Positions 43,122 through 64,000 of a stretch of DNA of 64,000 nt are shown here, in pieces (the first letter of the stretch is position 1; every line of letters begins with the position of its first letter). Location: NCBI RefSeq assembly GCF_037126465.1, contig NC_088205.1:27449482-27513481 (forward strand), written 5' to 3'. The DNA comes from Ornithodoros turicata. Lineage: Eukaryota; Arthropoda; Arachnida; Ixodida; Argasidae. The notes under the pieces were generated by a model. The model ran no database searches, was not told the origin of the DNA, and saw only the letters and a program-made list of their open reading frames with translations. A program made the position numbers and the translations under genes.

Positions 43122-43186
43122 AGCGATGCATTTCTCTTCGAGTCTCAGTCTCTTCTTTCTCTTCGTGCAACGTGTACGCACGCAAC

Positions 43187-43822
43187 ATGTCTTCCCCCGA
43201 ACCTTTTCGTTTCCGTCATCCTTTTCGCTGTATCTTAAGCGGCCCCTCCATGCGCGGCAAATCTACTTTCGTTGCTAACGTGCTGAGGAACTTGAAGGAC
43301 GTGGTGGACAAGCCTCCGTCACAAATATTCTACGTGCAGAAATATGCTTCGCCGAGCATGCAGGACGAATTCGGGGACTCCGTAAAATTTACCAAGGAGC
43401 TACCGCGAGAGTGGGACACGTCGCGCGCTACGCTGATCGTTGACGACGATCACATGACCGACGCCGGTTCCTTGAAGGAGGTGACCGATCTTTTCATTCG
43501 GGGTTCTCACCACGCCAACGCGTCGATCTTCTTACTCGTTCAAAACATCTTTTTCGACAGTAGCCATTTTAGAACAATATCCTACAATGCCAGTTACGTC
43601 GTCCTGTGGCGCACCGTGCGCAGCGTGCACCAGATGGAACATTTCGGCCAACAGCTATTTGGCAGAAAAAGATTGGAGTATTTTCTGGACGCATATAAAC
43701 AAGCGATGTCGTCGCCCCACGCATATTTACTCGTGGATCTTCACAACTATACGCACGAGGATCACAGGTTGCGTAGCAATATCTTTCCGGGCAAACGTCA
43801 ATATATCTACGCTCCGAAATGA
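43187..43822 (+). CDS. Polinton/adintovirus-type DNA-packaging ATPase
   Basis: A 211-residue frame with ATG at 43187 (MSSPEPFRFRHPF) and TGA at 43820-43822. The Walker A motif GPSMRGKST is near residue 24 and the Walker B TLIVDDD near residue 86; VQNIFF follows as a probable sensor region. This is the FtsK/HerA-type (A32-like) packaging ATPase found in Mavericks/Polintons and related DNA viruses, which drives genome packaging into the capsid. Size fits the family. No break is visible. It is the best preserved gene of the block. Confidence 0.85.
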   Translation: MSSPEPFRFRHPFRCILSGPSMRGKSTFVANVLRNLKDVVDKPPSQIFYVQKYASPSMQDEFGDSVKFTKELPREWDTSRATLIVDDDHMTDAGSLKEVTDLFIRGSHHANASIFLLVQNIFFDSSHFRTISYNASYVVLWRTVRSVHQMEHFGQQLFGRKRLEYFLDAYKQAMSSPHAYLLVDLHNYTHEDHRLRSNIFPGKRQYIYAPK

Positions 43823-43915
43823 ATCTCCGCCCTCACCTCACTTTACTCACAGTACTCTCCACTCTACCCCCTCCGCGCCGTTCGCGACGTCTTGAGACGT
43901 TCGTCCTTGTGCGAC

Positions 43916-44164
43916 ATGAAACACCTCTCCGAAATTTGCCTCAATGTATTGAACGGAAAGGTGGCTCTAGCTCCAGATACCTTCGCGCGTTTGAAGAAGC
44001 ACAAACGCTTTTTTCGACGGCTCGCCTACAAAAAGATTAACAAGAATCCACAACGTTTGAAGCACTATCTGTCTCAGCAGCGAGGACAGGGCGTTCTTTC
44101 GTCGGTGGTTTCTCTCCTGCTTTCCGCCGTGTTGAACCTTTTCGCCAATGGCCAAGAGAATTGA
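43916..44164 (+). CDS. small basic protein with hydrophobic C-terminus (pX-like)
   Basis: An 82-residue frame starting at ATG 43916 (MKHLSEICLNVLNG). The middle is strongly basic (FFRRLAYKKINKN) and the C-terminus is a predicted amphipathic or membrane helix (VLSSVVSLLLSAVLNLF). Genes of this kind, basic then hydrophobic, sit between ATPase and capsid genes in Polintons and adintoviruses and have been compared with adenoviral pX. Assignment rests on position and composition. The stop overlaps the next gene's start region by 17 bases. Confidence 0.6.
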   Translation: MKHLSEICLNVLNGKVALAPDTFARLKKHKRFFRRLAYKKINKNPQRLKHYLSQQRGQGVLSSVVSLLLSAVLNLFANGQEN

Positions 44165-44623
44165 AGTGACCACCTCCTCCTCCATCGGCAACATTCTTTC
44201 CTTGAAGGAGAATGACGACGTCAAAGTGAAACTCATACTGCAAGCACTGTATCGCATACTCAATACGGATTTGACCCCTACGACAATAAAAACAAGGCGT
44301 CCGACGCTACAAATGACTTTGACTATTCGCTCCTCTCTCCAGAGGTGGACGAAGAGGAAGCGGAAAGGGTCGTCTCGGAATTAAAGAAGGTTCTTTCCTG
44401 GGATCGCGAGGGTTGTGTCTCCGTGTCGGGCGAGCCCATCAGACACTCCTCTGTTTACGAACTCGTCAATTATTTGTTGCAACGTAAGACGGGAAAGAAA
44501 CCTTCCTGGTTCCCCAAAGTCTCGAAACTATTGCGTCTGATTTCTCTGCCCAAATCTCGCGAGCCTCAACAGCAGCAGCAGCAGCAAGCCTCCATTGCGT
44601 GGACGACTTATGGAGGGATATGA
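44148..44623 (+). pseudogene. unknown Polinton-element protein, frameshifted
   Basis: The frame starts at 44148 (MAKRIEVTTSSSIGN) and runs in one frame to about 44280. The coherent continuation (acidic VDEEEAERVVSELKKVL, then SVYELVNYLLQRKTGKK and a poly-Gln run near 44570) is in another frame, ending at 44623. One frameshift around 44275-44285 explains this. The protein would be about 158 residues. I do not recognise a family. It is positioned immediately before the integrase. Confidence 0.55.
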
Positions 44624-45652
44624 AAAGCCAGCGGGTGGTTTGGGGTGTGTGGAACGCATAGAAAAGCGCGTCACTTGAGCAAAAAGAAGGCTCTCGCCAT
44701 TCTCAGAAAGCTGGATGCCTACACGCTTCACCATCTGGTCAGAAGAAAGTTTAATAGGAGACGCATCATCGCGCTCAAGATCAACGACGTGTGGCAAATG
44801 GACCTCGCCGACTTTTCAAAATACAAAAGATTCAACGGTGGCTTCCGCTACATTCTCGTGGCAATCGATTCCCTCTCCCGCTTTCTGCGCACCCTCCCGC
44901 TAAAGACGAAGCGCCCTGCCAAAATGAAAAGGGCCATGATAAGACTTTTTTGAGGAGGTAACGTACCTACACGCATCTTTTGCGACAGAGGAGGGGAATT
45001 CTACAACAAGACCGTCAAGGAGTATCTCTCACGAAAGAAGGTACACATGTATTCCACCTTCTCTCCAGTAATCAAAACATCGCAGGCTGAACGCGTGATA
45101 CGCACTTTACGCGACAGAATATTCCGCTATTTTAGAGTAACCGGAAAATACCACTTCCTTTCCGCGCTTCCCAAGATCGTGCGCGACTACAACAACACCA
45201 AACACAGGACTTTGGGCATCAGCCCGTCCGAAGTCACACCCGAAAACGAATTGGAGCTGTTCAATAAGATAAATGGGAAGCCCGTCGTACCCTCCGTGAA
45301 AAAGAAGCTCAATGTGGGGGATAAAGTGAGGGTCCTACTACACAGAAAAGGTTTTCATAAGAGCTCGGAAGGGAGTTGGTCGCCTCAGATTTTCACCGTC
45401 TCCCGCCTGAGAGACACCTCCCCTCCCGTCGTGCACCTGGAAGATTACCGGGGTAAGGAAGTGGACAGATCTTTCTACCTGGAGGAGGTACTCGTCGTAA
45501 CCCGAGACGCCAATCAGCCTTGGCCAGTAACGAAAGTGCTGAGAAAGAAGCAAGTGAACGGTCAGAGCTTCTCCTTGGTTCACTGGTTTGGTTACGACAA
45601 AGAACACGACAGTTGGGTTCCGAGCAGCGACGTGGTTAAGATTGGGAAATGA
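44600..45652 (+). pseudogene. Polinton integrase (retroviral type) with chromodomain, interrupted
   Basis: The N-terminal piece (44645-44953) has DAYTLHHLVRRKF and the first catalytic Asp in QMDLADF. A single in-frame TGA (44951-44953) then interrupts it. The same frame resumes with the second Asp in FCDRGGEFY and the Glu in SQAERVIR, giving a DD~35E spacing. A DNA-binding barrel region follows (VGDKVRVL), then a C-terminal chromodomain-like VHWFGYDKEHDSWVP. This is the rve-type integrase of Mavericks/Polintons, which inserts the linear genome. The true N-terminus is unclear; a frame change around 44620-44660 is likely. The TGA overlaps the next ATG (ATGA at 45649). Confidence 0.8.
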
Positions 45653-46928
45653 CGTCAGACATCTACGTCCACCTGCTCTCGAATGCCAGCATGGATAAGT
45701 TTCCCTCGAATAAACTCAACGCCTTCACGGTAGCTTTCGATAGTCCGCTTCAGCTCTTGAATCAGTATAAAGTCGGTCTGATGGATCTCAGCATAAGTAA
45801 TGATTTTTTAAATATCGGGTACGAAAGGCAAGATGCGAAAATCGAGGTTTCTTTCGAGGACACGGTGGAAGCCGGCAGAACTTTTTATGTCACCTCGGAT
45901 CTCGAGAGGGATTTGGGAAAAGCCCTTTCGTAATTTAACGTTTCTTTCGCGTACAATAAATCGCGATACGACTTCGTCTTACCCGTGGACGTGAAAGCCG
46001 TGGAATTGGACCCTCGGCTCGCGCAGGCGCTCGACGCCTCGCATAGTGTCCCGCGAAGCAGGTCGTGCGGTGAAACCTCCCAAATTGAGCGAACGCGAAG
46101 CCACCTCCATGTTATTGGAGCACGCCGCACCCGTCGCTTTCGGCGACGTCACTCTGAATTCGGAAACCACGTCCCTACGGAACACACTCAACAAGTATTT
46201 CCAGACGCACAGGCTGGACACCTCGCTAGAATTCGCGGATAACGTCTACTCTCTGAAAACGCCGAAAGGGTTGCACGTACCGGAACCCTTTGTCAAGCTG
46301 CTACATCTCACAGCCGTCGAGGGACACGGAGAAACGCTACGCGTCTCTCTCCCCGTAGCGCGCCAATTTTCTTTCACGATCAAGACGAAAATTCCTCGAT
46401 CTTTGCAAGTACATCTGCCTCCCGGCTATTATGCGACGCCGCAAGCACTTCTGGATGCGATTAACCAGCGCGTAGGCGAACGCGCGCGCTTCAGCTTCGA
46501 CGGAACCGAACAGAAATGTAAAATTCGGCTTTCCGAGGGCACCTCCACCTTAAGACTTTCCGAGTACCTGGCCGTGCTTTTGGGCTTCGAATCGCGTACC
46601 GTGTTCACGGGGGAGGAGGAGGATGCCACGAGCTCCGTCGAGGTACTCCTGGAACCCCCGTTTCACAACATAATCGTCTACATGGATATCGTGGAAGCCA
46701 CGTACGTGGGGAGCGGGAAAAAACCGATATTAAAAATACTACCCTTTTATTACGAGAAAGACAAGCACGTCGTCACCTACCAGTTTATCTAACATCCAGT
46801 ATTTTAACCTGTCTCAATTCGAAATTCCCTCAGTGACGATCGTTCTCGCGGACGAAACGGGAAGACGTTTGCCGTTGCGGTCCAAAGGCAGAACCAATCT
46901 AACATTGCATTTCAAATATGTACCGTAA
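45649..46928 (+). pseudogene. minor capsid (penton-like) protein, three lesions
   Basis: It begins at 45649 (MTSDIYVHLLSNASMD, FTVAFDSPLQL) with the start typical of Polinton minor capsid proteins. An in-frame TAA stands at 45931-45933. A frame change near 46040 leads to the long central part (46046-46792; SLQVHLPPGYY, LSEYLAVLLGF, FHNIIVYMDIVE). A second one-base frameshift near 46790 precedes the C-terminus (IQYFNLSQF, VTIVLADETGRRL), which ends at 46926-46928. It would form the capsid vertex. It is predicted single jelly-roll from the family, not seen directly. The 3' end overlaps the next start by 11 bases. Confidence 0.8.
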
Positions 46929-47250
46929 TTCCCCCAAAATAATTCCTGTGTACACGGGACCCCTTTTCCAACGAGGGTGTGGTGTGTTGAGCAACATATC
47001 CAAGTTTATCGTTCCCATCTGGCAGCAAATAAAACCGATCGCCAAGAGAACGTTGAAGCGCTTGGCGCGGAATTTGGCCGATGGTGAAGGGATATCGCGC
47101 GCAGTAAAAAAGACGGCCATAGCAACGGGGAGAGACGTGCTGGATTCCATGGAGGGCTCTGGAAACAACAACAATGGAAAGAAACGCCGCAAAAGACAAC
47201 AAAAGGCGCCCACACACGATGCACCTGCAGATATCTTTGGTATGCCGTGA
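46918..47250 (+). CDS. pVI-like small virion protein of the Polinton-like element
   Basis: A 110-residue intact frame from ATG 46918 (MYRNSPKIIPVYTG). A Gly/Arg-containing N-terminus (PLFQRGCGV) is followed by an amphipathic helical part (IPIAKRTLKRLARNL-like region), a Gly/Asn linker (GSGNNNNGKKRRKRQQ) and a short tail. Proteins of this pattern accompany the capsid genes of Polintons/adintoviruses and are compared with adenoviral pVI. The name is by position and composition only. It lies just before the major capsid gene. Confidence 0.6.
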   Translation: MYRNSPKIIPVYTGPLFQRGCGVLSNISKFIVPIWQQIKPIAKRTLKRLARNLADGEGISRAVKKTAIATGRDVLDSMEGSGNNNNGKKRRKRQQKAPTHDAPADIFGMP

Positions 47251-47354
47251 AGGTCACACATCCGCTGCGCGCGCTCCGTCATGACGTCAATGAAAGCAAA
47301 AATACAGACGCAACGGTCACCGCATTGTCTAACGAGTGATGTGATGATATTCGA

Positions 47355-47454
47355 CGATGAAAGATGAAAGATCGTTGATTTCTTAGGCAATTTGAGGCTT
47401 TGTTTGTATCTGTCCCTTCTATGTTGTTCCAGCCTCAGAACATCAGTTTATCTC
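47355..47454 (+). mobile_element. 5'-truncated SINE inserted at the capsid start codon
   Basis: A 100-base tail segment of the tRNA-SINE (GATTTCTTAGGCAATTTGAG, GTCCCTTCTATGTTGTTCC, AGCCTCAGAACATCAGTT). It is flanked by an exact 11-base duplication ATGATATTCGA at 47344-47354 and 47455-47465. The duplicated target includes the ATG and first codons of the major capsid gene, so the SINE arrived after the viral element. The same tail is seen at 8180-8280 and 61770-61870. Confidence 0.85.
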
Positions 47455-48688
47455 ATGATATTCGAACCCGCTTCCATTCAATACGGCGTGGAAGATACTT
47501 CGTACCAACTCTTTTATCCTGTCAATGGAGTAAATAATTCCGTGATCGAATTTTCTATTCAAAATTTGCAAAGGGCACACTTGGATCTCTACGGTAGCTT
47601 CGTGTCTTTGACCGTGCGCATTGTTCGCGACGACGGGGAAGAAATGGACGAGAAAGATGTCGTTTTCCCAATAAACCACCTGTTGAGCGGCATGTTTAAG
47701 ACGGTCACCGTTTATGTGAACAACAAGCTCGTCAGTTCCAACGAGTTGTATGCCTACAGAAGTATTTTGGACGTCGTGCTTCATTCCACGCCCATGGCTC
47801 AAGAAAGAGTACACGCGGCTGGACTTTATGTCGAGGACGACGAACATTTAAAGAACGATTACGACGTCTCGTCTCGTGGTCCGAAACAACGTTACGAAGC
47901 GATGAAGGGTGGAAAATACTTTAGCCTGGTCGGACAGATCAATACCGACCTGTTTCAACAGCCGCGCCTGATGGTACCTGCCGTCGAGATTCGCGTCGTT
48001 TTCCTATTAAACAACGACGAATTTAAACTCATATCGGCCCCCAACGACAAGAAAACGTACAATTACGAGGTGGACATTAAAGAAATGCGTTACACTTGAA
48101 AAAAGTGACGCTGGCACCTCCCTATTTTTGGAATACGAGCGGCGGCTTCAGACCACGCCGGCCATCTACGTGTTACGCGCATTGGAAATCAAGGTGCGAA
48201 GCTTGAGTGCCGGGAGCTTGGACGCTCACTTAGAAAACGTTTACCCCGAAAGGGTGCCTTCCAAATTATGCGTCGCCCTGCTCGCCACGTCTGACTTTCT
48301 CGGCGACATCCAATCGAACCCCTACAAATTCTGCCATTACGACCTGTCTCATTCGATGCTCTCCGTGGACGGCCAGCAAGCGCGAGCCGAATACGACTTT
48401 CAGAACGACCTCGTCAAAATTCCCTACTTTAACTTCTTGCAAGAACTGGGTGAGAAACATTTCAAGTATAGCTAGGAGCGATTTAAAACGAACGGGTTCC
48501 TCCTCTACTTCAGCTTGGACGTGGACAAGTGTTCTTTTCCTTCGCATTTGAACGAGTGGCGAAAAGGAAACGTTCGCCTGCAATTACGCTTCGCTAACGC
48601 CCTTCCACACGCGGTCACCGTCCTCTTGATTTCGGAGTGTCCCAAGCTCATGTGCGTCGACAAGGACCGTACGGTCACCTTCCCATAG
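47455..48688 (+). pseudogene. major capsid protein (double jelly-roll), frameshift and stop
   Basis: From the ATG at 47455 (MIFEPASIQYGVED) the frame carries FPVNGVNNSVIEFSI and NLQRAHLDLYGSFVSL, typical of the Polinton/adintovirus major capsid N-terminus. A one-base frame change in the A-run near 48098 is followed by LEYERRLQTTPAIYV and FCHYDLSHSML. An in-frame TAG stands at 48473-48475, with clear coding beyond it (FLLYFSLDVDKC, LPHAVTVLLISECP) to the natural stop at 48686-48688. The expected length of about 410 residues fits the family. The protein would form the capsid hexons. The SINE insertion duplicated its start codon. Confidence 0.85.
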
Positions 48689-48693
48689 AAAAG

Positions 48694-49133
48694 ATGTACG
48701 AGAGCGACATCTTGGAACTCGTGTCCCTGAACCCCCTCGCTTCCTCCATGCTGAGAGGCATTTGCGCTTCCGACGAAGCCTTCGTTTTACGCAAGCCCGG
48801 CTATTTAATCATCAATACCGAAGAGCGAAGAAAGCGCGGGCAGCACTGGGTGCTCTACTTGAAAAACTACGACGGGTCTGCTGTGTTTTTCGACAGCTAC
48901 GCACTTCCCCCATCGAAGCAAACCTTCGAAGGACTTTACCTGCAGTGGACGAGTATAACGACAAGTGTATTCAATCACCCTTTTCGCCTTACTGCGGGCT
49001 TTTTTGTATCTACGTAGCCACACGCATGTCGAAACGCTACAGGTTGAAAAATTGTGTATCCATGTTTTCCTGTAACCACGAAGAGAATGACGAAACAATA
49101 AAACGTCTCCTCGTGAGCGAACTCGTTTCGTAA
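48694..49133 (+). pseudogene. adenain-like cysteine protease, one frameshift
   Basis: It starts at ATG 48694 (MYESDILELVSLN), five bases after the capsid stop. The catalytic His lies in GQHWVLYLKN and the Asp in VFFDSYALPP. A frame change near 48950 then moves coding into the frame holding EYNDKC and the catalytic Cys of SPYCGLFCIYVATRM; the end is at 49131-49133. The His-Asp-Cys order and the spacing define the Ulp1/adenain-type maturation protease of Polintons, adintoviruses and adenoviruses, which trims capsid proteins. AATAAA follows the Cys block inside the 3' part (about 49095). Confidence 0.85.
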
Positions 49134-49150
49134 AAATAGTCTATTTATTT

Positions 49151-49403
49151 TTTCACGACATACACAAGACGCTTGCGAGACGATCTTCCAACGTGCTGAC
49201 CCGACGCTTGCGAGACGATCTTCCAACGTGCTGACCCGACGCTCGTCGCCGCCGGTCACCGTGACGTCGAGGGATGTGTGGAGAAGCCAGTAGCGACGGA
49301 TGATAGGTCGGTTGAAACCCGCGTTGATGAGACATGGGTCGACTGTCTCTCCTCGTCTATACTTCTCCAGCAGCTCGAGCTTGTAATCTACGAAACGCTT
49401 CAT
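49151..49403 (-). pseudogene. small minus-strand gene disrupted by a 35-base tandem duplication
   Basis: The frame starts at 49403 (MKRFVDYKLELLEKYRRG) and reads LINAGFNRPIIRRYW and VSTLEDRLASV. There a 35-base unit (gcgtcgggtcagcacgttgg...) is present twice (about 49169-49238). The duplication shifts the frame; without the second unit the frame would stop a few codons after DRLASV. A minus-strand AATAAA lies nearby at about 49146, convergent with the protease gene. I recognise no family. The basic N-terminus with VSTLEDRL heptads could be a short coiled coil. Confidence 0.5.
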
Positions 49404-49606
49404 TTTCTTTGCTATCTTCCCACTGACGGTGAACAGACGTAAGGGTATTGTCTTGAGAATCGAGCGAAAGTCTCCCTCGCAGCTATCGCCGTGAATATAA
49501 TCGAATATAATCGCAGCAAGTCCCGATACATTCGCGTTTGCACAAAGGTTGCAAACCTCTGCTCGGGCGTCATGACTGAGATGGAATGAGAGTAGACAAC
49601 CTTTTT

Positions 49607-49612
49607 TTTATT
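49607..49612 (-). promoter_or_regulatory. polyadenylation signal of the Cys-rich minus-strand gene
   Basis: AATAAA on the minus strand, 17 bases beyond the stop of exon 4. It could serve both splice forms. Confidence 0.5.
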
Positions 49613-49628
49613 TCTTGTTACACATGAA

Positions 49629-50320
49629 TTAGGCTCCAGCTTTGGTTTCGTAGCCGGGAAGGCAGCCCAAATACGGACGAAGGCGCGAGTCTAACCAATG
49701 GCTGGGGTTTCTCGACCAGAGTCCACCGCAGCGACAAGTGGTCAGTTGATTGCCGATCCGCAAAAAGAAGGTCTTCGGAGGAGGCTTGAAGGTTAGGACC
49801 AGGGGTAGATCTCCCGTCAGTAGCCATTCGTAATCTGCAACGAAAGGAGCGTGAGAAACACGTTTTTTTATATCTCAAACACACACGTACAATCTTCTTC
49901 AGTCACAGAGTGACACTGATGGTCCATCTTCTCCATCTTCCTTCAATAGTCGAAGTCCTTCGCAACGTACGTCGAACGGTACCGTCCGACAGCCGAGAAA
50001 CGGGCGAATCAATCGGTCCGTCCAATGCTTTTGCTCTGAAAAAAATTTGAACGATTATAGAGCGTATTAAAAAATAACGAGGAAGCATACCTTTGGACCA
50101 CAATCCACCGCAATTGGTGCAGAAGAAGCGGGCGCTGCCAATCTCCCGAAATATGTGAGGCGGGAAAAAACCGACTTCACGCGCAGCAAAAGTGTTGTAC
50201 ACTGGAAAACGAAACCCTTCAAACATTTCGACGATGATGACGTCATGGGTATTACTTACGAGGATCTACCAAGCTGATCATGATGGCACGAGAATGACAA
50301 TCAAATGTTCGCTTCGACAT
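49629..50320 (-). CDS. spliced minus-strand gene with two alternative homologous Cys-rich 3' exons
   Basis: Exon 1 (50260-50320, MSKRTFDCHSRAIMIS) ends at a GTAAGT donor in phase 1. It can join exon 2 (50091-50201) and exon 3 (49899-50035, stop at 49899-49901). Alternatively it can join exon 4 (49629-49834), whose acceptor TTTCGTTGCAG is in the same phase. Both products contain a CxxC/CxC-GGLWS block (FFCTNCGGLWSK versus TTCRCGGLWSRN) followed by HW and RPFLGC or RPYLGC, so the two endings are duplicated exons. A minus-strand TATAAA directly precedes the first ATG, so the second ATG (50281) may be the real start. AATAAA is at 49607-49612. Function unknown; probably zinc-binding. Confidence 0.65.
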
Positions 50321-50339
50321 TTATAATAAAGCTTTGCCT

Positions 50340-50560
50340 CTCACTCTCTATGACGTCATTGAACGTGTTTGGACATGTTAAGACGTGTTTGAACATGTTT
50401 GGACGTGTTCAGACACGGGCGGCGAACCGTCGAAGTCGCCCCTGGACACACTCGTTCCTCTCACCCTCTCTATGACGTCATTGATCATGTTTGGACGTGT
50501 TTGAACATGTTGTGACGTATGTAGACACGAACCCCGCAATACGAAAAACGTCACGCAGTA
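50340..50560. promoter_or_regulatory. divergent promoter region with CRE palindromes and degenerate repeats
   Basis: Between the minus-strand Cys-rich gene and the plus-strand membrane gene lie two copies of CTATGACGTCATTGA (about 50349 and 50471). They sit among repeated TGTTTGGACGTGTTTGAACA-type units. TGACGTCA is the consensus site for CREB/ATF factors. Another TGACGTCA is in the first intron of the minus gene (about 50238). A role in regulating the divergent genes is inferred. Confidence 0.5.
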
Positions 50561-50640
50561 CAAATTAGACTGGTGGTCAGTGTGTCGCGCCCAGTGTAGA
50601 AGGATCCTGGGTTCGAATCCCACACTGGGTCTTCTCGTCG
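50560..50640 (+). repeat. tRNA-like B-box sequence, possible SINE fragment
   Basis: TGGTCAGTGTGTCGCG, then CCTGGGTTCGAATCCCACAC carries a B-box-like GGTTCGAATCC, with a CCCAGTGT/ACACTGGG inverted pair forming the arm. There is no convincing complete cloverleaf. It is probably a SINE head fragment. Confidence 0.4.
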
Positions 50641-50809
50641 TCATGTACAAGTCGGCCCAGAGTGTTAGCTAGAAATTAGTGTAATGTTTTATTCAACGTC
50701 GATGGTATCATTGTCATATGCGATATCGCAAAGAGGCGCGAAAGACGGAAGGCGGGGTGGTCAAAGTACAAACGACACCGTCGCAACGCGAGGAGAGCGG
50801 TGTAGCGAC

Positions 50810-50818
50810 TATAAAAGG
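50810..50818 (+). promoter_or_regulatory. TATA box TATAAAAGG
   Basis: TATAAAAGG about 30 bases upstream of the predicted transcription start of the spliced plus-strand gene at 50840-51809. Confidence 0.65.
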
Positions 50819-50839
50819 TACGCTGGTTCTACGACGATT

Positions 50840-51809
50840 GACAGGAAGCCCACGAGGGGCATCCATCCATCCACGACGTGAGGCGTCTCGTGGAGCAAAA
50901 TGTAAGTTGACCGTCTCTGCTGTGAGAGTGTATTCTATGTACGACATTGTTTTTCAGGAACCAACAGCCGCTGTCACCGCATGATACTGAACACACACAG
51001 GGACTCATCCCATCCTCTCTCATCATCATCATCAATCTCAAGCGTTCCTCAACTGAAGGGAAAAGTGAGCATTGTTTCGTGAGGGGGAATCTCGTACTGA
51101 TTTTGTTTGACCGCAGTGCCGCGCTGTCTCGTATGTCAGTACGACCCCATCGATGCCATGCTCGTGGCCGTAGAAAGAGAGCACGAAGCTAGAATAGAGA
51201 ATCTCGGTAACAGCCCAGTCGTCCTTTCAGATGACGACGACGACGACGACAGAGTCAGTAGTCCGCCTTTGGTAATACCTGAAACGGACGCCGACGACGA
51301 CGAACCCCCCCAGCAAACACGTATCGTTCACCGATTATCCCGTTTTGATCTCAATGCCCACACCCGGATGAGACGATCCATGCGTCGTCCTTGCGAGCAC
51401 CGTCCGCGACTAAAACCTCTTGCTCCCACACCCATCCACCCGAGAGCAAAATGCGAGCATTCAACTCTTGAGAGCGATGAGGTAGTGCGAAACTGTGGTG
51501 AGTTTATAAGATTACCTAACCATTTTGGCGTTGATGCGAGTTCTACAATGGAATTAGTTCTTTGCTATGTTACTGCAACATTATTACGCAGAAACACATT
51601 GAGTTTAGATCGCAGTGCACATACGTAACGGTCACCGTCGTACAACGTCCAGCGCCCGCGAGGTTCAAACGTGTTCTGACCGGTGCCCTGTGATCGTGCT
51701 CGTGACAGCCGCCCTTTTCTTCGTCGCCACGCTGGTGGAAGGATGTCAACCAACGGCAAGTGTCGGTTCCTTTAAACCTGTGCTACCTTTATGTTTCCGT
51801 GCCATATAA
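50840..51809 (+). CDS. spliced gene for an acidic single-pass membrane protein; ATG made by splicing
   Basis: Four exons by GT-AG junctions: about 50840-50901, 50958-51064, 51117-51497 and 51616-51809. Exon 2 ends in A and exon 3 begins TG, so splicing creates the ATG of MPRCLVCQYDPIDAM. The 191-residue product has a Cys pair (CLVC), an Asp-rich block (DDDDDDDRVSSPPLVIP), an Arg-rich region (TRMRRSMRRPCEHRPR) and a C-terminal membrane segment (CPVIVLVTAALFFVATLVEG) with a short tail. There is no signal peptide. I recognise no family. It sits between the Polinton structural genes and polB, so it is probably an accessory gene of that element. The exon model is inference from signals. Confidence 0.55.
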
Positions 51810-51850
51810 TCGGATTCACCAACTGCGCGCGCCCGACTATAATTTGAACA

Positions 51851-52075
51851 ATGTGGAGGTCGGATCGCATAGTCCGACGCAACGTCAGTGCTCGCGTGAA
51901 TGAAAGCCTACTTGCTTTAGCTTGTGCCAGTGAAGGAGGTCCAAATGTCTCGGACACATATTACAACCGTTCTCCACAGCCTCCAGAACGTGAAGAGATC
52001 GTGCATGAAAATTTCAGGACGTCTTCAGCCGGCAGGCCTAGTAAGAGCGGCGAGATCGTTGTTTTTCTAATTTGA
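51851..52075 (+). CDS. small hypothetical protein
   Basis: A 74-residue frame starting MWRSDRIVRRNVSARV, with a Ser/Pro/Glu-rich middle (NRSPQPPEREEIVHE). CTATAATTT lies about 15 bases before the ATG and AATAAA (about 52085) just after the stop. The close neighbours support a short transcript, or the 3' UTR of the membrane-protein gene just upstream. No family is recognised. Confidence 0.35.
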   Translation: MWRSDRIVRRNVSARVNESLLALACASEGGPNVSDTYYNRSPQPPEREEIVHENFRTSSAGRPSKSGEIVVFLI

Positions 52076-52327
52076 GGTTTTATGGAAATAAATATTTTCA
52101 AAACAACCACAAACTGTGACAACATGTAACATGTACAACCCAGTGTGGGCATATTCTCTGGGCACACGACGCTCCGTGTAGGCTGTCACAATGAAAGCAG
52201 TGACTCCATCATTGAAATGACGGTAAGTATGGCGATTCCAACAAGTTTTATTCCACATATCTGGCCTTCGTTTAACATCGGAAAATGAGCGTCGTCTGCC
52301 TCTTCGCAGCTACACCTTGCTACACGC

Positions 52328-52393
52328 TACCGCAGGAAGTTCCGCCCTGCACGCTGCCTTTGAGCGGCGCGCAGGGCGGAGCTTCTTGCGGTA
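52328..52393. repeat. hairpin with 23-base arms upstream of polB
   Basis: TACCGCAGGAAGTTCCGCCC at 52328 is mirrored at 52371-52393 with two mismatches over 23 bases, enclosing a 20-base loop that can pair further. It is GC-rich and about 230 bases before recognisable polB-type coding. It could be a regulatory or replication structure, or a tiny foldback. Confidence 0.6.
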
Positions 52394-52570
52394 AGGTGCG
52401 AACCGAAGGAACGCCCGGCCGTACGCAGTGGCTGCTCCGGAGAACGCGCGCGCTATGATCCCAACTTCACCCCACGGGTTATCTGTGGGAGCACACAGCG
52501 AATTCGAAACCGCGGACAAGTTGAGCATTTTTCACGGGTGTTTCGGGGATTGGCGCACGTCCCAGGTACG

Positions 52571-53224
52571 ATCGCATCATCGCATTTCGTGATCCATCGT
52601 TCCTCGCACGTACGGACTTTGGTTTGCTGGGCCTAGATGGGCACGACAATGCAGACGAATTGCTCATGTGGGAAGGGGATCAGTCGTATGCAAATTTCAT
52701 TCCTCTGTCTGGTAGGGTTCGAGATGAATCACCAGATGCAAGCCCAGAATTCCGAAACGAAGCTGAGCCTGTCCAGGGTCGTAGAATCGTTGAATTGCGA
52801 TAACACGTCGTAGAGAATCATCCCTCCGTCAGGGAGAGACGATTCCTTCCTTTCTTTGTCACAGATGAGGCATTTGACGGAACGGCTACTAGGTACACGC
52901 TTCTCTGTTCCCCGCACGACGACAACGTCGACGATTTGCGACTCTATCTACCAAGCATAGCTCCAGTAATCACGCGCGTCCTCGAAGCTTATCCAATGCC
53001 TTTCAAATTTTGTGTGTGCTCGAAGGCGCTCATGGTTAAGGACGGAGCCGACGGGCTGACTTCTCATCTCCTTCACGTGAACCTTCACATGAGAGTGGTT
53101 CATAACCGTCAAGAAATCGAAGGCACGATAAACGCTGCCATCGCAGAGTCCTCGCAACGCATAGAAAACTATGCGAGAGAAGGGTCTGGTTTCACCTCGA
53201 ACGACGTCCAATGTGTCGACTTAA
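52571..53224 (+). pseudogene. polB-type gene of the Polinton-like element, 5' part (interrupted)
   Basis: Coding-like sequence starts near 52571 (RIIAFRDPSFLARTDFG). It contains an in-frame TAA at about 52801-52803 and then runs without a break through FLPFFVTDEAFDG to the end at TTAA (53221-53224). The block PFKFCVCSKALM ... QEIEGTINAAI ... ENYAREGSGF ... VDLK is the conserved leader region that precedes protein-primed DNA polymerase B in Polinton/adintovirus-like polyproteins; this is from memory of the family. The 10.5-kb THAP transposon follows immediately. The reading frame resumes at 63758 without shift when the transposon and one TTAA are discounted. Confidence 0.7.
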
Positions 53225-53554
53225 AGGGACTATCGCATACGGAGAAATGGGTAGGAAATGGTTACGAGAATGGTTGGCATCATTCGACAATTCATTTCAT
53301 CAATTATCTTGGCTAGAAAATGTTCCTGTAATAAATAAACGAGTTTTTTCGATCAGCGAAACATCGGATGACGTCATTGTGACGAAGGCTTCAACAGGAC
53401 CAATGCGAGGTCGGCGCACCGCCGGCGCCGCTCCCCCATTTTCTCTCGGGGATATCGTCTGCTTTGTACATATGGCGTCGTGCATGTCTCTGTGTATGAA
53501 ACAACAAATTTCCTCGAAAGTGCTGTGAGTTTCGCTCAGTGGTGAAATTGCAAC

Positions 53555-56500
53555 ATGTCTTCGAGTTCGGGAACACGTTGTAATGTTCCTGGCTGTAAAA
53601 AATCGTCTGGTGCGAACCCAGAATTGACATTTCACGGGGCCAAGGACAGAGACACGAAACGAAAGTGGGAAGCAGCAATCGCCGGCAGTCTTCCTGTCGT
53701 GGCAGAGGAACTGCATGTTCGGCACGTTTGTTCCTCGCATTTTGCCGACGAGGCGTACGTGGAATCGGACTTATTGCAGTTCCGTATGGGACTGTCAGCC
53801 AAACGAAAGAGACTAAAGCCCGATGCTGTGCCCACATTGTTCGATGAGCAAATGGAAACCACCGACGTGCCGGATGAGCAGGTAAGCATTTGTTTTCGAT
53901 TCATTTCGAATGAAGCCCTACAAAATTGTGGTGTAGTGATATAATAGCTCACGAAGTGCCTCCATGTAGGCGATCGGGATCTAGGTGACTCAATGTAAAC
54001 ACACTACACTCGGAGTGTAATCACGTACAATAAAGGGGAGAGTATATCCTACCAGATGTCGGTTGTGCTGTTCGGCGTATATAACAAAAAGTACGTACGG
54101 AAGTACATTTTTTCACGCTCTATCCGCCGATTTCAGCCATTTGTTTCTGCAAATGCGCGCCAGAAAAAGTACACATGAAACACCGCGACCGGCAGTGATG
54201 TACCAGACACTCCTAGCCCCCACCAGCACCCTACGTATTTTTTTTGGCGACATCCCTCTATAACTTGCATTATTCAGATTCACTGTTTCTCCTGTGTCTT
54301 TCTTTGCTCATGTAACCCAGCATTTTTGTGAACTAGCAACGTCATTTTTGTGAGCTAGTGAGAGCAAAGGAGGCAGCTTTCCAACAGAATAACAATTAGG
54401 CATTACAGTTTTATGCATCATGTCCCACATCAGGTGCTCAATTTCTGTCACAGGTGGAGAGAAGCGGCTTGATGGAATCTGCTTCAGGTGGTGAGTACAA
54501 GAAACTTCCATTAGGGAAGTCCGTGTTGTACGGTTAATGAAATGTGAATTCTGATTTACACTGAATGTTCATGTTGTGAAACCGGCAGCGTATGCAGGAG
54601 TATCAGCCTCTACAAGTGGTGCAAGTGGGAGTTCAGTTCTGCAGCACATGACAGCCACATCATCAGAGGATGGTATGCTTTCCAGTTCACCTATCACAGC
54701 TCAAACAATAAGACTGTAAATTATGTACCAAAAAAGAACTGTAAAAACAGACATGGTGGTGGCAGAGTTTTGCCTGAGGGTGACACTCTAGCATCTTACA
54801 ATATAGGGTACACATATTTTCCAAGGTGGATGCAAATAGTCCACCACCCATCTAGCAAGTCACGTTTTGCACTCAGTCCGATGAGAAAATGTGCCACACC
54901 TGAAACTTGTGTCCAGCACTAAGTGTAGCTGAGCCTATAGCTATGCAGCTTGTCTCAAGAAAATACAGTAATCAATAATGTACCCATGATGACAATATTC
55001 ATACTATACAATATATACTACAATACATATACTGACAATATATATATACTGTGTGTTTGCTTAATTTTTTAAGTTCTCGTCCTGGATGAGCTGCCCCTTC
55101 AGCCTTTGGTTCCATACCAGAGTGTCAGCCAATATGGCTTTTTGTACACTTTGGTGCCACAGAAACAACGCTTGAAGGGTGGAAAGACGGCAAATAAGAA
55201 ATCACAGACAGCTGTTCCCACTGTAACACTTGGTAATTATGCTTCAAAATGTATTGTGCTTCACAAATATGTTTGTGTTTCTTATGCAGTGTAACTATAC
55301 GTAATGAATACTTTGGTTGCTTCCGTCATATTGCCCAACTGGTCAGGTGGAGAATTCCGTCATGAGTATATGAAGTTATAAGCCAAAACACTGTTGCACT
55401 TATTATAAAGAAGCAGTAGTGACATTGAACCAAATTAACTGCTGTGTAAGCTTTCAAAGAACTTTGTGAGAAACATGAGCTCAACGTGCATTCGTTTCAT
55501 CCTTTTTTAACCATGTATGTTTTTCACTTGTGTGTATGCAGCCACTCAAACAGGCATCCTCATGCCAAGCAGAGGAACTCAGACAGCTGTAACCTTCCCA
55601 CCCACTGGTGCACTCTCCTTTACATCCTCACAAGTTGCAGCAGAGTGTCCAGAAACCAGTGGAGACAAAGGCGCAGCTGTTTCTTTAGCAGAGGCTTTGC
55701 TGCCACATGATGACGCAGCACAGCTTTGTGTTGTCCCACTGGAGCATGCTAGTCTTTCGACGTCACCGCCTGGTGGCCGTACCTCTACTCCAGTGCCTGT
55801 GGACTTAGACACGACGGATGTGTCCACATGGTATGGGCAGTATTTTCTTTTTCAACATGTATTCAGCTTTGTTGTTATTTCTGGGAACTTTGTTTGGATT
55901 GGTGTACATAAAAATGACACTGTGGCATTTTCTCAGCAGAGATGAAAAGTGCTTGTGATGAAGGCAAATTAATCTGTTTCACTTGTGCGTGCAGCCCACC
56001 CGACCCAAAGGATATGACATTCCAGTTGTCTGAAACCGCAGAAAGCTCAGACACTGAAGAGTAAGCTTGAGATCATGAGGTAAATAGAAACTTTGAGAAT
56101 TTGTTTTCTTTTCTTGCAGTGAAGGAGACAAGATGTTGCAACCACGAGGGCTTTCAAAATCTCGTGGGCATCAAACGTAAGTGAAATATTTTGAAATATT
56201 TCTCAAAGCTTGTTCAAGACGCTGGTAGCATAATAATCTAAGAATTAAAAAATTTGGTTGGCTTTCCAGACCAAATCCAGATGAGCGATTTTTCCTGGTG
56301 GCAGAATCCAGTTTGAAAGAGCTGCTAACCCAGTGCCCCTATTGTGGGACCGATGATGTTGACATCAACACCACAACAAGGGGGACATGCTTGAAAGCTG
56401 TCATGCGTTGCAAGTGTGGGAGGGAACGGTCTTGGCACAGCCAACCTTGGCTGGGGGGCCGACCACTGGGGAACGTCCTGGTCTGCTCTGCAATCCTCTT

Positions 56501-59500
56501 CTCAGCTGTGACATCTCAAAAGCGTTTAGGATGTTTGAGCTTATGAAGATGGCAACACTTACAATGTCTCAGTACTTTCGAACGCAGAAGGAGCACCTCT
56601 TTCCTGCTGTGAATGATGTGAGTCCTGTGACGTGACGTGTGACTTTGCTGTGACATGCCACACAGAGTGGGATAAAAGGGGCACGTGATATGTTTGCGTT
56701 GAGTGTATGGCCCTGATTTTTCCTGCTGCTTAGATTATTGGCTGTGCCTTGAGTTCCCTCAGCAAACAGTCAAAGTAAAAAGTAGAAAGAACAACTATTT
56801 TTCTGTGATTGTGCTATGATCGTATAGTAAGAACCTCCTTTGGAGGTGCTTCAATCAATTGCAAATGCAATGCTGTAGGGCAGGCAGTCTAGTACGGTTT
56901 TGGCTTTACCACTATTTCTCTGACAATCATGGGTCATCTACCATGTGTACCCAGGGTTCCTCAATTTGCACTCATCCGAAAATGTTTTTAGGTCTACCTC
57001 ATGAGACAAGCAGAGATCCTTGACCAGCTTCGGCCACTGCCCCTGACCCTTGCCGGGGATGGCAGGTGCGACTCACCCGGCCACACTGCATTGTATGGCA
57101 CCTACACGCTTCTGGAGACTGCAGCCAACCGTATCGTGCACTTCGAGTTGGTTAAGGTACCTCAAGTTGTTTTGTGGACACCAGAAAAGTTTTGTGACAA
57201 AAGTTATCATGGATAAAAAAGCACCTACAATAGAAGAGCTTGGTCATGTTACATTCTAATTTGGGAATTCAAAAGTGACTCGCTTTTGCCTAATTGTCTA
57301 ATGTGAAGTGTGGATACAGCAGGCTGTAGTAGGACGAGACTAAAGTGCCCCCAGGCAAAACTTAGAATGCACATATGAAATGCTACATTCAGTGACCATC
57401 ACTTATTGTAGTGCAATAGCATGGACGACAGGAAAGACTGTCTATAAATCAAGCTTAGTCAAAACGATTAATTACTATCTATTACAGAGTATTCACTCGT
57501 AATGAAATTACTCACAAATTGCTTGGAAAAATTAATAAATTACTTGCCGCATTACTCACAAAAGTATCTCATTAATAGTATGGCAATTCGTTTAGTGCCT
57601 CACATACAATGTCTGACCCTGACCTTTCCTCCTATGCAGTCTACTGAGGTCAGCAGCAGCAATGCAATGGAAGCCTATGGTCTACTGAAATGCCTCGCCT
57701 TTCTCGAGGTACATGACATGACTGTGGACACCTTGGTCACTGACCGCCATTCTGGCATCAAAGCCATGCTAAGGTGACTGTGTCCACACATAACGCACAT
57801 ATTTGATGTGTGGCATGTTGTCAAAGGTGAGTGGAGCAATTTTCTGGAGGGGGTTTTATGTCACACGTGATAACATCCAACAGTAGTCAAGAAAAAGCTC
57901 TTGGGTCTCAGTCGCTCAACGAAACACCAAGTTGTGCAGCTCTGGATTGATAGCTTGACGAGACATGCATATTGGTGTCCGCGTACAAGCGGGGATGATG
58001 GGGACCTATGTCTTGCAAAGTGGGTGTCAGCAGTTAACCACATTGTTGACATCCATGAGCACGACAACCCGTTGTACCAGATTTGCTACCACGGCGCACT
58101 TTCTGAACCACGACAATGGCTCAGAGAAGGTAAACGCTGACATTTTGCAGTTTGTAAAACATTATATACAGAGTAGCGAAGTAATAAAAGTTTTCCTTAC
58201 TGACACTTATGGGTGAAATACACCACAAATTCAAAAATCTTACAACAAAATTAACACAATTGAAAACAGAAAAAAAAAATATGTTGCACACCTTATACTG
58301 CAGCCTCATTCCCATTCTCTGATCCACGATCTCGGTGGAGGTAAGATCTTGAGTATTATTTATCTCTTATTCTTTACGCAGTAAATTCTTTCTTCTGCCT
58401 TCAGCAAGGGGACAAGAGAGAACAATTGGTTTAAAATTTACTAAAATGAAATGTGAACATAGGCACACACAATGATCCTTCCTTGCATCAAGTAATTATT
58501 GTGAGTACTGCGTGCCAATAAGGATAAACTTTTATATGTGGCTCTCCTGTATTCATATTAATGTATCGGTAGTTGTTATTGAAAGCCCTTAACTTTACAC
58601 GATTCACAGAAATCTCGTAGAAGTGATGATTTTTTGCAGACCACAGGCGAATTTCCCCATTCATTATCATTAACTTATTTGTTGTTGTTGTTGCAGACCA
58701 CACGTTTTGTTGTGGTATTGCAAATAATTTTACTTTTTTTAAATTATGTAACCTAGAATTCTTTGCTGTGCCCTATGGAATGTGTCATTCTCACCAAACA
58801 ATTAAAGAAAAAGCAGTTGCAACAGAGCAAGTAGAGATGATCTACAACCCCTGCCCATGCGTGCAAGAGCACCTCATAGCTATTGATCAGGCAGGCATGG
58901 GCCTGTCTGACTGCCTACCTGCTTGGCTGGAAGCCATGGTTGGTGGGTGTTTTTGCATCTCTCTGGCATAAGCAAAGGTGTTAAAAATGCGAAATTGAAA
59001 TACCAAATACATGAGCACAGCAGATGCATGGCACTATGCCTGGAGAATAGTGTCAAGGAGTTTTAGTATCTGAGAGATAACTAGATTCTTTTCTGTTGAG
59101 AAACTGTTTGTCTATCAGTTGTGAACTTTTATACGCACTAAGAAATCCAGCACATGCCCCTTTTTTTATTTCTTTTTTGCCTGTAGACAACTGCAGATTA
59201 TCAGTTTGTCGTTCGCAGTATATTTGAAATTATCACTGCAGAAACGTAGGGGCTGTAACCTTTCAGTGTACATGATGAACATTTCAAGCACCTGACAACA
59301 CACAATTGTAGACACAGAGACGTACAGGCGAGTCCAGGACATCCTGTTGTCACCTGCACTCCTGAAGGATATCCCATTCCTGTCCTCACAAGAGCAGACA
59401 TATGGATTGGAGGCCTTTCACAGTGTCCTCATCCACTTCCTGCCGAAGTCCTACGCTTTTTCTGACGAGGGGATGGTGGCTAGGTATGAAGCGTATGGAC

Positions 59501-60567
59501 CCACGAGTTAGGAGCCAAGTCCAGCACGGTGACAAAGGGTATCATAAGAATGTAATGTACTCCACTTGTAGGACACAGTTGGCGATCATCCACTTCAACG
59601 AGAATGCAGATCGTGTCCAGTTGGAGAGGGAAGGCGCGAAGCAGTACCGTCTCAAGGCATTGAAGGTTAAGAAGACGTGGGTGGCTGTACCTCTGAAGGA
59701 GAGTGCTAGCTATGGTATGTGCTGGTTGCATGCATCATGAATGAATCTATGTTGCAGTCGTTGAGTTTTAGTTTTATTTATTTGCCAACAAATTACCACA
59801 CTGCCCAGTTACACCAACGCTGGGTAACTTTGAACCGAGATCAAGGGTTGCTAAAACGTAAAGTTAACACACAATTCTTTCTTTACAAATGCTAGATGGT
59901 CATGTGATGAACGTTTCAGTGACAATGACTCTTTTTAGTGATGAACAGTTATGTGTTAAATTCAAGTTAAGGGACCAGAGATCTTGGTTGAAATGGAAAT
60001 TGACGTTGGTGAAACCGTGCCTTCGCAACTTTCAGACAAGTAAGATAGGAGTAATATGGGAAAGGAACCTTCCTGAAATCCACTGTACATGTTACAAATA
60101 TTGAGTCCCACAGTGAGATCAAATATTCAAATCTAGTATTAATGTGAGATCATTGGGCAAGGAATATCCCTCTGTCCATAAACACTTTGCTTCACCATTA
60201 CCTATTTTTGAATTATTCAGCTGTGAGTGTCTCATCAAACATCCCGTTCAATGGGGAGCAGGGAATTTTCAGTGCATTGATCAGATAGTTTTCGTGCCAA
60301 CTCCCATCTTCTTATTGGATAGGTTATGCATCAGCCTTGATTGCTGAGGTGCTGACACGCATTCAGGAGCACAGAAGGGAGTCTGGAGCTGTGGCAACTC
60401 TGCCAACGCGGTCATCAACATATGGTGAGAGGCCAAGCCTTACAGAAGCAGTCGTGAAGCATCAGGCAAGGTTTGTGCACACTTTTCCTACCATATATTG
60501 CTCACATAATGTCATGGCTTGATGTTGTTATATATTGTGAATTTTTATTTTTAGGTTCCAGAAATGA
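53555..60567 (+). pseudogene. THAP-domain Kolobok-type transposase, 15 exons, two lesions
   Basis: Exons: 53555-53881, 54454-54490, 54589-54672, 55074-55232, 55542-55830, 55995-56060, 56120-56176, 56270-56617, 56992-57156, 57640-57826, 57884-58129, 59312-59483, 59572-59714, 60335-60470, 60555-60567. Exon 1 is a THAP finger (CNVPGC, KRKWEAAIAG, VCSSHF, AVPTLF). After a low-complexity linker come CPYCGTDD/CKCGRERSW, then the presumed catalytic residues in LAGDGRCDSPGH, LVTDRHSGIK and YGLEAFHSVLIHF; FDVWHVVK and IIHFNENADR are further family motifs. Junction phases all agree except exon 8, which is one base short (frame change near 56510). Exon 10 has an in-frame TGA at 57775-57777. It ends HQARFQK. 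The family is known to cut and paste at TTAA. Confidence 0.8.
59803..60021 (-). mobile_element. Harbinger-like MITE copy inside the transposase intron
   Basis: A 219-base inverted, diverged copy of the MITE at 21865-22083. It shares GATCAAGGGTTGCTAAAA and GACGTTGGTGAAACCGTGCC. It lies wholly within the intron between exons 13 and 14. Confidence 0.65.
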
Positions 60568-61064
60568 GGCTCCCACCTGCATCACACACTGAACATTGAA
60601 ACTAAGCTAAAAAAAGGCCCTTTTCAGGGCCACCACAAGGTTTATGCAGAGACAAGCGTTGCGTTATGAACCCACCAAAGTGCACATTATTGTTTTTGGT
60701 CCAGCTGCATACACTTTTCTGAATTGTGCTGCTGATTCAAATGAACTGTTTTTTTTTAAATTCCTTCTGTGGCTATTAATAGCATCTAACCATATGCGCA
60801 CCTGTGTGACTTTTATTGGAATTCCAGTTACAATTTCAGCGCACAGAGGACACACTAAGGATTCAAGAATATGGTGGTACCGGGCTCCGATATGCATATG
60901 ATGGTAAGTTTTTTTATCTTTGTCTTAAATTTGTGTTTTTACTTTTTTCAGCACATCGAGCTCGCACTGCTCGTATGGAAGAAAAGAACCTGTTACCATC
61001 CTGTCAACATGAACCATAATGCCAGCTCCCTACATAGCAACTGAAAATATAGCAAGAATGAGGA

Positions 61065-61070
61065 AATAAA
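61065..61070 (+). promoter_or_regulatory. polyadenylation signal of the transposase
   Basis: AATAAA about 500 bases after the stop. Two further possible 3' exons with GT-AG signals (60842-60903 and 60950-61020) lie between, so the 3' UTR may be spliced. Confidence 0.45.
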
Positions 61071-61564
61071 ATGTACTAAATACAATCAGTTCTTGTTCGA
61101 AATGTTTAATATATGTATCAGGTTCAGAAAGCTTCCATATACACAGAACTGTGGCAATACACACACCGGCAATAACTCTACCCTCCATTTAGAAATAAAG
61201 CATAAATCCAGGCTAAAGGAAAAAAAAGCATAAGTTTTTTTTTTCTTTGTAAACATAGGTGAAAAACATCGTACAAAAGAAACCTCGCTATGGTGAAGCT
61301 GGATAGACTATTCAAAATGTGTATTGCACCAGTACTTGTCCTCATTGTGGTTTGTACTTCCAAATGATTCTCAATGAAAATTGTTTACACATTCCAGTAT
61401 GCGACCTAAGTCTGTACACTGCTCTTGAAGTGAAACAAAGGGTCTAAACCTTCGGAACTGTGCATGCACATATATGACGTACAGTATGACCTGCTCAATA
61501 ATTTGTGACTTCGCTCTGCAACATTTCTTCACCATATGTGGTTATGGAAAGCAAACATCATGGA

Positions 61565-61870
61565 GGTGAAAGATGGAAGTCACTGAAAAGGTTAGCCAGG
61601 CTGTAGGACCCAAACCCACATCTTCTGGATTACTGTGATTGGTTTGTCCCTTCAGATGACGCACCCTGGAAGTCGCTGAGAAGGCATGTTACCTCAATTG
61701 GTAGAGCCCTGGACCGGTAATCCAGAAGATGTGGGTTCGAGTCCTACAGCCTGGCTAACCTTTTCAGTGACTTCCATCTTTCATCGTTAATTTCTTAGGC
61801 AACTTGAGGCCTTTTATGTGATTGTCCCTTCTATGTTGTTCCAGCCTCAGAACATCAGTTCTCTCTTGAT
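61565..61870. mobile_element. pair of tRNA-SINE copies in inverted orientation
   Basis: A minus-oriented copy (about 61565-61640: GATGGAAGTCACTGAAAAGG, TTAGCCAGGCTGTAGGACCC) directly abuts a plus-oriented copy (about 61655-61870: CTCAATTGGTAGAGCCCTGG, GGGTTCGAGTCCTACAGCC, and the full CTTAGGCAA...CAGCCTCAGAACATCAG tail). Together they can fold into a long hairpin. They lie between the two genes of the Kolobok-type transposon. Confidence 0.75.
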
Positions 61871-62658
61871 CATGGAGGTTTTGATTGTGTATACAGTTAC
61901 ATCTTCTAATAGCAAAGCACCGTACATGAACATGCGCAAACAACAATGACACTGATGAGTCCTAAAATGAGAGCGTCTATAATTAAAGCTCTAACGTGCC
62001 CAGAAATTATATTTAAAGCGAGCGACATGCTCGCCAAACTTCTTCCGAGAGACTTCTGGCCAAAGTAACACCTATTTATTTCGGAACGAATCCACCGCGT
62101 GACCGACCTCCACGAACTCCAAAGCCCAAAAAAAAAAAACCCCAAAAACCTCAACTCCAACTTCGTTCTCCTCTCATCGTCTCTCCTCGTCGTCTTCCTT
62201 CACAACAGTTCCTACACACTGCCCCCCCCCCTAAGAAATGTCATTTCTTCACACTTCAAGTTTATATAAAAGTTCACCACATCGGACGATAGTTGACCCG
62301 TTGGGCAGCTTAACTTCGAACGCCCGTGATTTCTGGTCCCTTCCTGGCAGGCATCGCGAAATCCTTCCTGTTGTCCACCTTTGCCTCGGTCTGCAGTCGA
62401 CCGCTACTTTTCAGCTACTTCACTAAGAAACAGGTGCAGCTAGTGAAGCAGTACCTGTTTCTTCAGTAAGAAACAGGTAATGCTTCCACTAGCAGCTCCA
62501 GTTCCTTGGTGAGGTAGCTCAAAAGTAGCACTCGTTTTAGACAAAACCTCTGGACACGTTAATTAGAGCAAACACCCTGCTGCACGAGTTGAATTTGAAA
62601 GGTGTTATGAAAAGTGAAGTATGTTACAATATATGACACATGGGATATATGCCTGGTG
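61871..62658. other. spacer between the two convergent transposon genes, no gene seen
   Basis: It contains an A-run and C-run microsatellite (62125-62235) and short mirrored CTTCACTAAGAAACAGGT / ACCTGTTTCTTCAGTAAG blocks at 62420-62480. No coding signal was recognised. Confidence 0.5.
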
Positions 62659-63456
62659 TTACTCGTAGTATCCCGTATATGAAACTGACAGGAACAACGT
62701 CCTGATTCTTCGAACAGCACATCCTGGAATCTGCCTTCGGTTTCTTATTCCAAGGTATCCATGAATCCATGTTGTGAACGCGCAATACGCGCTGTATCGG
62801 AGACGTCTGTGTGAAACAATAATAAAGGAGACAAAATATTGATTTGCTTGACTAAGAGCAGCAAACTTTTAGTAACACACATCCATGTGCTCGAAACGAA
62901 AGTGGCACGAAATCACGACATTTACGACGTATGAGAAGTTTTAGACACAGTACCTATTGTCAGATGGCTCGAGAACACGCATGCGACGGTCATCACGGCA
63001 AAACACTGGAGCATAGACAACCAGGAGCTCCCTCCGCAGACAAATGTCATTGAAGAGTGGGTGATCGGTGATACAATTGACCCCGGCACCCTCACAGACA
63101 GCCGACACCCGATCAACAGAACTGCAGCACCGGCGTTCATCGGGTTCCACTGGACTGCAGCGAGTGCAGAGGCATCTGTCATTTCCAAGTGGACAAATGT
63201 CAAAATGCTTAACAGTGCACAACCATCATGAGATATGATATGATCGGGATATGGCGTACCCGAAAGTGTCGTCGCTATCGGACGGCTCGCTTTCACTGGC
63301 TGCACCTTCACCTGCAGCACGACCTGCAGCAGGGTCAAGTGGTAGAGGGTCTGTGGAATAAGGGTCGTCGTCGAGCACAATTTCTTCGGAGCTGTAGTCC
63401 TCAGAATCGCTTGGAAGCGACGCGACGTCACTTTCGTATTCCGACGATTCCGACAT
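62659..63456 (-). pseudogene. P2X7 'ballast'-domain zinc protein carried by the transposon
   Basis: Two exons on the minus strand: 62954-63456 and 62659-62806, joined at aatag/gtactg and cacacag/acgtct. Together they are 651 bases, an exact multiple of three. The N-terminus is acidic and Ser-rich (MSESSEYESDVASLPSDSED). After an in-frame TGA (63226-63228) comes the Cys-rich core: CPLGNDRCLCTRC, RRCCSSVDRV and CITDHPLFNDICL. The second exon gives LRYSAYCAFTTWIHGYLG and IPGCAVRRIRTLF. This order (C..C, CC, CITxHPxF, YRxF..WxxGYLG, IPxCAVxxIRxxF) is the zinc-binding ballast domain of the P2X7 C-terminus, also found as stand-alone multicopy genes in invertebrates. Its role in a transposon is unknown. 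The stop makes this copy a pseudogene unless a short intron removes it. Confidence 0.8.
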
Positions 63457-63753
63457 TACGCTTGGTGTCTGCTGGCCGCCTCGCATCCAGATGCCCCGCG
63501 GCCCCACCGATCAGCTGTGCGGGAAGAAGCGCTCTCATTGGCGCTGTTGAGCGTGACGTTATCAAGGCGTTGTGGAGAGACGGTGGAGAGGGACCTCATT
63601 ATGCGTCGTCTGCTCTCTCGATGTATTTCATTAGATTGCTCAGCATATACGCGACCTATTCACTTGGGGTTTTCGCTGCCCTTGTCAGAGGGCACTGAGA
63701 AATATTGTGGTACTGAAGTTTCGGAATCGACCGAGATGGATGCGATAGTCCCT

Positions 63754-64000
63754 TTAAAACTAACGCTCTTAAAACCGAAGCGGATTGGGTGCACGGTCGA
63801 GCTTCTAGAAATCTTGAAAAGAAAAACAAGGACTCTCACAAACGTCAAACTCCCTCCGAGTCACGAAAACGAGTGTTTCAAGTATAGCGTGCTGGCACTC
63901 TTACATCCTTTGAGGAACAAGCCAAACGATTATGGCAGATACCGCAAATACATGAATCCTTCAAATCCAGAGACACGCGTAACGTACTGGCCGCCCTGCT
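63754..64000 (+). pseudogene. polB-type gene, continuation after the transposon (runs off the window)
   Basis: The frame resumes after TTAA (63754-63757) and is open to the window end. It includes LTLLKPKRIG and the motif NECFKYSVLALLHPL followed by DYGRYRKYMN. That ECFxxSVLAxLHP signature occurs in the linker just upstream of the endonuclease and DNA polymerase B domains in Polinton-like and related polB polyproteins. The polymerase catalytic core should lie to the right of the window. The exact frame agreement with 53220 supports both halves being one former gene. Confidence 0.7.

Follow-up and report, generated by a model that had tools for sequence, protein, structure and literature searches.

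The window analysed here is a 64 kb stretch of tick DNA. A Kolobok-type element of 10,529 bases (53225–63753) lies between two copies of TTAA (53221–53224 and 63754–63757), its limits being set by its termini and by the continuity of the flanking frame. At the left end (53221–53238, plus strand) the target-site TTAA is followed by a 14-base terminal repeat, TTAA-AGGGACTATCGCAT; the right end (63740–63757, minus strand) is the exact inverse of the left end (TTAAAGGGACTATCGCAT), and the left end is identical to its reverse complement at 18 of 18 positions. Allowing up to three mismatches, the end motif has two matches in the 64 kb window, and none of 100 shuffles gave two or more. The duplicated TTAA target site and the terminal bases AG...CT (5′-RR...YY-3′) are those of Kolobok, for which Kojima and Bao 2022 (PMC9587614) describe TTAA, 5′-RR/YY-3′ ends and a C/DxxH signature. 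Comparison of the left with the right side of the element revealed, apart from the 18-base ends, only short matches, with no long terminal direct repeats of the kind seen in KolobokP; nor did a self-comparison of the window show the element ends as long direct repeats. One other TTAA-started inverted 18-mer pair is present in the window (10293–10891); by eye, it belongs to a separate 0.6 kb fold-back repeat with ends (TTAATTGAACTCC...) unlike those of the Kolobok element.

With the element and one TTAA taken out, the reading frames on either side join in phase and free of stops; an in-phase join alone has a chance of one in three. The interrupted frame belongs to a cluster of open frames (43121–53220) resembling a Polinton-type element, a label that presumes the gene set and order taken here to be those of Polintons. 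Two of four upstream frames gave Pfam matches below cut-off (Pox_A32, 13.9 bits, cut-off 22.8; Chromo, 23.5 bits, cut-off 25.1) and the other two gave none, nor did the frames on either flank of the element match any Pfam family at E 0.1. A scan of viral contigs with exact short patterns from the flanking frame gave one pattern match, which was not confirmed.

The plus strand of the element carries a transposase gene. Its THAP domain is encoded by an exon at 53555–53881 (PF05485, E 6.4e-13, 49.7 bits against a cut-off of 23.9), and a piece at 56304–56507 encodes a CxxC...CxC zinc-ribbon-like stretch with a weak match to PF23451 (16.7 bits, below the cut-off of 27). The catalytic regions were assigned by eye, and comprise the first aspartate in GDGRCDSPGH (exon 56992–57156), the second in VTDRH together with DVWH (exon 57640–57831, 3′ end approximate) and the third residue in GLEAFHS (piece 59323–59481). 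The motifs of a DDD/E triad, with C/DxxH between the second D and the E, are in order when read by eye rather than against an aligned reference. A further piece (57910–58128) lies between DxxH and E, where Kolobok transposases have a zinc finger, and contains Cys and His residues as candidates for it. By eye, the exon pieces that separate the first D from the second have too few cysteines for a CCHC finger after the first D; such a finger is described only for KolobokP, E, D and 5 and a few solitary families (PMC9587614), and its absence agrees with the Kol0 lineage. The transposase has an in-frame TGA (57775–57777) and loses its frame between 56508 and 56527, and the copy is therefore not autonomous as assembled. 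Compared with the window, five transposase pieces returned only self-matches, apart from weak ones at E of at least 0.11.

Several repeats are found in or near the transposase gene. A 220-base stretch in a transposase intron (59803–60022) is 79% like 22082–21864. Further along, a nested repeat (61567–61872) has near-perfect 67-base inverted arms (61567–61633 and 61717–61783), and part of it (61655–61872) is 90% like 8059–8280. ARAGORN places a tRNA-Ala at 8092–8164, inside the latter copy, so this tRNA call probably falls in a dispersed SINE-like repeat and does not mark a tRNA gene. Between the transposase and the next gene lies a 137-base palindrome (62398–62534) with 48-base arms that are 81% complementary and an inner 19-base hairpin that is 95% complementary, possibly a fold-back insertion.

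The second gene of the element is on the minus strand, so that the two genes lie tail to tail. It is referred to here as KolX, the name given by Kojima and Bao 2022 (PMC9587614) to the second protein that the Kol0 group encodes besides its transposase. Its coding sequence (63456–62659) specifies 188 amino acids in three predicted exons of 197, 222 and 148 bases, and has no internal stop once spliced. Exon 1 (63260–63456) encodes an acidic N-terminus, exon 2 (62954–63175) the cysteines matched to P2X7 positions 477–506, and exon 3 (62659–62806) the C-terminal half of the ballast domain and the stop codon, its frame alone matching PF20478 at E 8.2e-05. The first two open stretches share one frame and are split by a TGA at 63228–63226, which rules out a two-exon model. 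An intron search found two in-frame GT-AG introns that would remove this TGA, the better-scoring being 63259–63176. For the second intron there were eight legal candidates, and the best score was shared by two of them, with acceptors after 62852 and after 62807. Intron 62953–62807 is preferred in the predicted model because NRRLRY then aligns with NSRLRH of P2X7 (an NxRLR match).

An earlier note on this DNA had proposed a two-exon minus-strand gene for the Cys-rich tail module of the P2X7 receptor, placed within the terminal repeats of a transposon. The strand, the span, the domain and the position inside identical 18-base ends flanked by TTAA all hold; the exon number becomes three. The domain is confirmed by an HMM search in which the spliced product of the three exons matches PF20478 (P2RX7_C) with E 1.4e-10 (41.8 bits, cut-off 23.5). 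Left unspliced, the frame of the last exon alone scores 23.0 bits, slightly short of this threshold; neither of the first two open stretches has a Pfam match, so the case for homology is carried by the spliced model. At E 0.1 the 188 amino acids match no other Pfam family, and no P2X channel domain was found. Four of 177,635 distinct PDB sequences match KolX at E 0.001, all of them P2X purinoceptor 7 (best E 2e-07).

KolX is about 30% identical to P2X7. Seven positions (477, 479, 482, 498, 499, 506 and 572) are taken here to be the ballast cysteines of P2X7, and six of them are kept in the automatic alignments (MAFFT, HMMER), which set the CC pair of P2X7 against V92-C93 of KolX and so pair C498 with a valine. 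Other animal ballast proteins have the CC pair followed by a longer spacer, and for this reason the pair was anchored by hand. KolX then has a cysteine at all seven positions, with a spacer from CC to CIT of 16 residues compared with 6 in P2X7. Compared with the P2X7 ballast structures (PDB 6u9v, 9e3q), KolX keeps R546, A549, Y550, W556, P570, R578 and F581, and these include the two GDP-contacting arginines, R546 and R578. In the hand-anchored alignment H547, I568, R574, P582 and K583 are changed, I568 being replaced by glutamine. According to Rump et al. 2020 (PMC7016195), invertebrates keep R546 and R578 alone among the GDP-contacting residues, H547 and K583 were found in no invertebrate, and I568 is highly conserved, as I or V. 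The arrangement of the gene also differs from that of the receptor. In P2X7 the ballast is joined to a P2X channel domain and lies in the last exon (PMC7016195), whereas in KolX no channel domain was found, and two introns fall inside the ballast domain or at its margin.

The gene content places the element among known Kolobok groups. Like Kol0 elements with KolX (PMC9587614; Kolobok-1_XT), it has TTAA, AG...CT ends, a DDE transposase with DxxH and a second protein bearing the ballast domain of P2X7 (PF20478, as above), so that the Kol0 type is most likely, the lineage being assigned by gene content; it differs in that its transposase is broken. The Kol0 hosts named there are vertebrates, annelids, cnidarians and sponges, with arthropods listed for Kolobok as a whole, and the present copy is from a tick. 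In the same account, complementary-strand accessory genes are described for KolobokP and one rhodophyte Kolobok. In KolobokP, as in the present element, the accessory gene follows the transposase and is read from the complementary strand, but KolobokP encodes a His-Me finger nuclease in place of KolX and has the long terminal direct repeats that were not found here. The Pfam scans of the present analysis covered selected reading frames.

That the minus-strand ballast gene is the second gene of a Kolobok-type transposon is supported by the termini, by the flanking frame and by the opposite orientation of the two genes. The locus as a whole is very probably a decayed Kolobok copy, with Kol0 as its most likely type, which was inserted at a TTAA in a Polinton-like-looking frame and carries tail to tail a broken THAP/DDE transposase and a KolX with an intact reading frame, the latter probably assisting the former.

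The gene might instead be a host ballast-domain gene captured as passive cargo by a single transposon copy. Stand-alone ballast genes are reported in many animals, including Ixodes scapularis, and are claimed to be linked to two markers that they share (Rump et al. 2020, PMC7016195). The evidence for KolX in the present analysis also comes from one copy; when KolX was compared with the window it matched itself only, with no second copy in 64 kb. However, KolX is reported as the second protein of Kol0 in diverse animals, and the tail-to-tail layout resembles that described for the KolobokP nuclease, the published orientation being that of KolobokP and not of KolX (PMC9587614). Capture of a host gene is accordingly thought improbable, and of the two possibilities in the earlier note, cargo or second transposon gene, the latter is supported by the termini, frame and orientation, while the former is less likely given that KolX is the second Kol0 protein. 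Another form of host involvement, in which the host took over KolX of this copy and selection now keeps it while the transposase decays, is suggested by the intact frame and workable splice sites of KolX beside a transposase with a stop and a frameshift, and by published proposals that Nanor and P2X7 are KolX-derived (PMC9587614). The transposase gene is about three times longer in its summed pieces, however, and two lesions there leave an intact KolX of 567 bases unsurprising; the 18-base ends of the element are also still identical. Such a takeover is thus quite unlikely.

The ends might also be those of a larger element or of a different one, with the ballast gene as a host gene caught between them. 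The terminal repeat extends only 14 bases beyond the TTAA, and the nested repeat (about 61567–61872) and the palindrome separate the transposase from KolX, both of which would suit such a history. Against it, the flanking frame joins in phase at exactly these TTAA points (the one-in-three chance given above applying here), and the gene content agrees with the published description of Kol0 (PMC9587614), making a caught host gene highly improbable.

On the reading of the locus as a Kol0-type copy with two genes of its own, KolX is most likely an accessory factor of transposition. It would be made from its own convergent gene and act in trans, would fold around two zinc ions, and may assist the transposase in the handling of DNA ends, in complex assembly or in regulation. 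Accessory proteins elsewhere in Kolobok are a DEDDh exonuclease, a lambda-exonuclease-like nuclease, a His-Me nuclease and a RecQ helicase (Kojima and Bao 2022, PMC9587614), and these nucleases and the helicase suggest a role for KolX in DNA handling or its control. A more specific role can be imagined, in which KolX senses zinc and guanine nucleotides and so regulates Kolobok transposition, the GDP/zinc ballast of P2X7 being a repurposed transposon cofactor switch. The GDP-contacting R546 and R578 are kept in this transposon copy, although H547 and K583 are changed, and this role is considered unlikely. Scans for relatives of KolX gave 7 and 25 pattern matches among viral contigs and 25 among prokaryote genome contigs, none of which was confirmed, as expected for an animal transposon; these scans used exact short patterns only, in collections from which records near the genome of the window may be absent.

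The pairing of KolX with a transposon, and the proposed origin of the P2X7 tail from it, were already published in 2022, and the present copy is a further example. In that work (Kojima and Bao 2022, PMC9587614), KolX matches residues 476–595 of human P2X7, with the ballast fold and seven cysteines, P2X7 is argued to descend from a P2X4-like gene that became fused to KolX, and Nanor is likely to be a domesticated KolX. The idea in the earlier note that transposons carry the ballast domain and offered a route by which a vertebrate receptor gained it is thereby supported from print. The stand-alone ZCD genes, including nanor, of Rump et al. 2020 (PMC7016195) resemble the present KolX in encoding a short protein with a C-terminal ballast domain; they were taken there as host genes, whereas the gene described here lies inside transposon termini. 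The portions of that paper covered here do not link the ballast domain to transposons, and the string 'transpos' is absent from its main text. The terms KolX and P2X are likewise absent from the main text of PMC6004289, and no tick-specific report of a ballast-carrying Kolobok was met among the listings returned by the literature search.

With its clean termini and interrupted flanking frame, the present copy fits the published transposon origin of the P2X7 ballast. The positions of the introns across KolX genes could reveal which lineage donated the P2X7 tail. The tick host suggests the same transposon source for the ballast genes that Rump et al. (PMC7016195) list from Ixodes.
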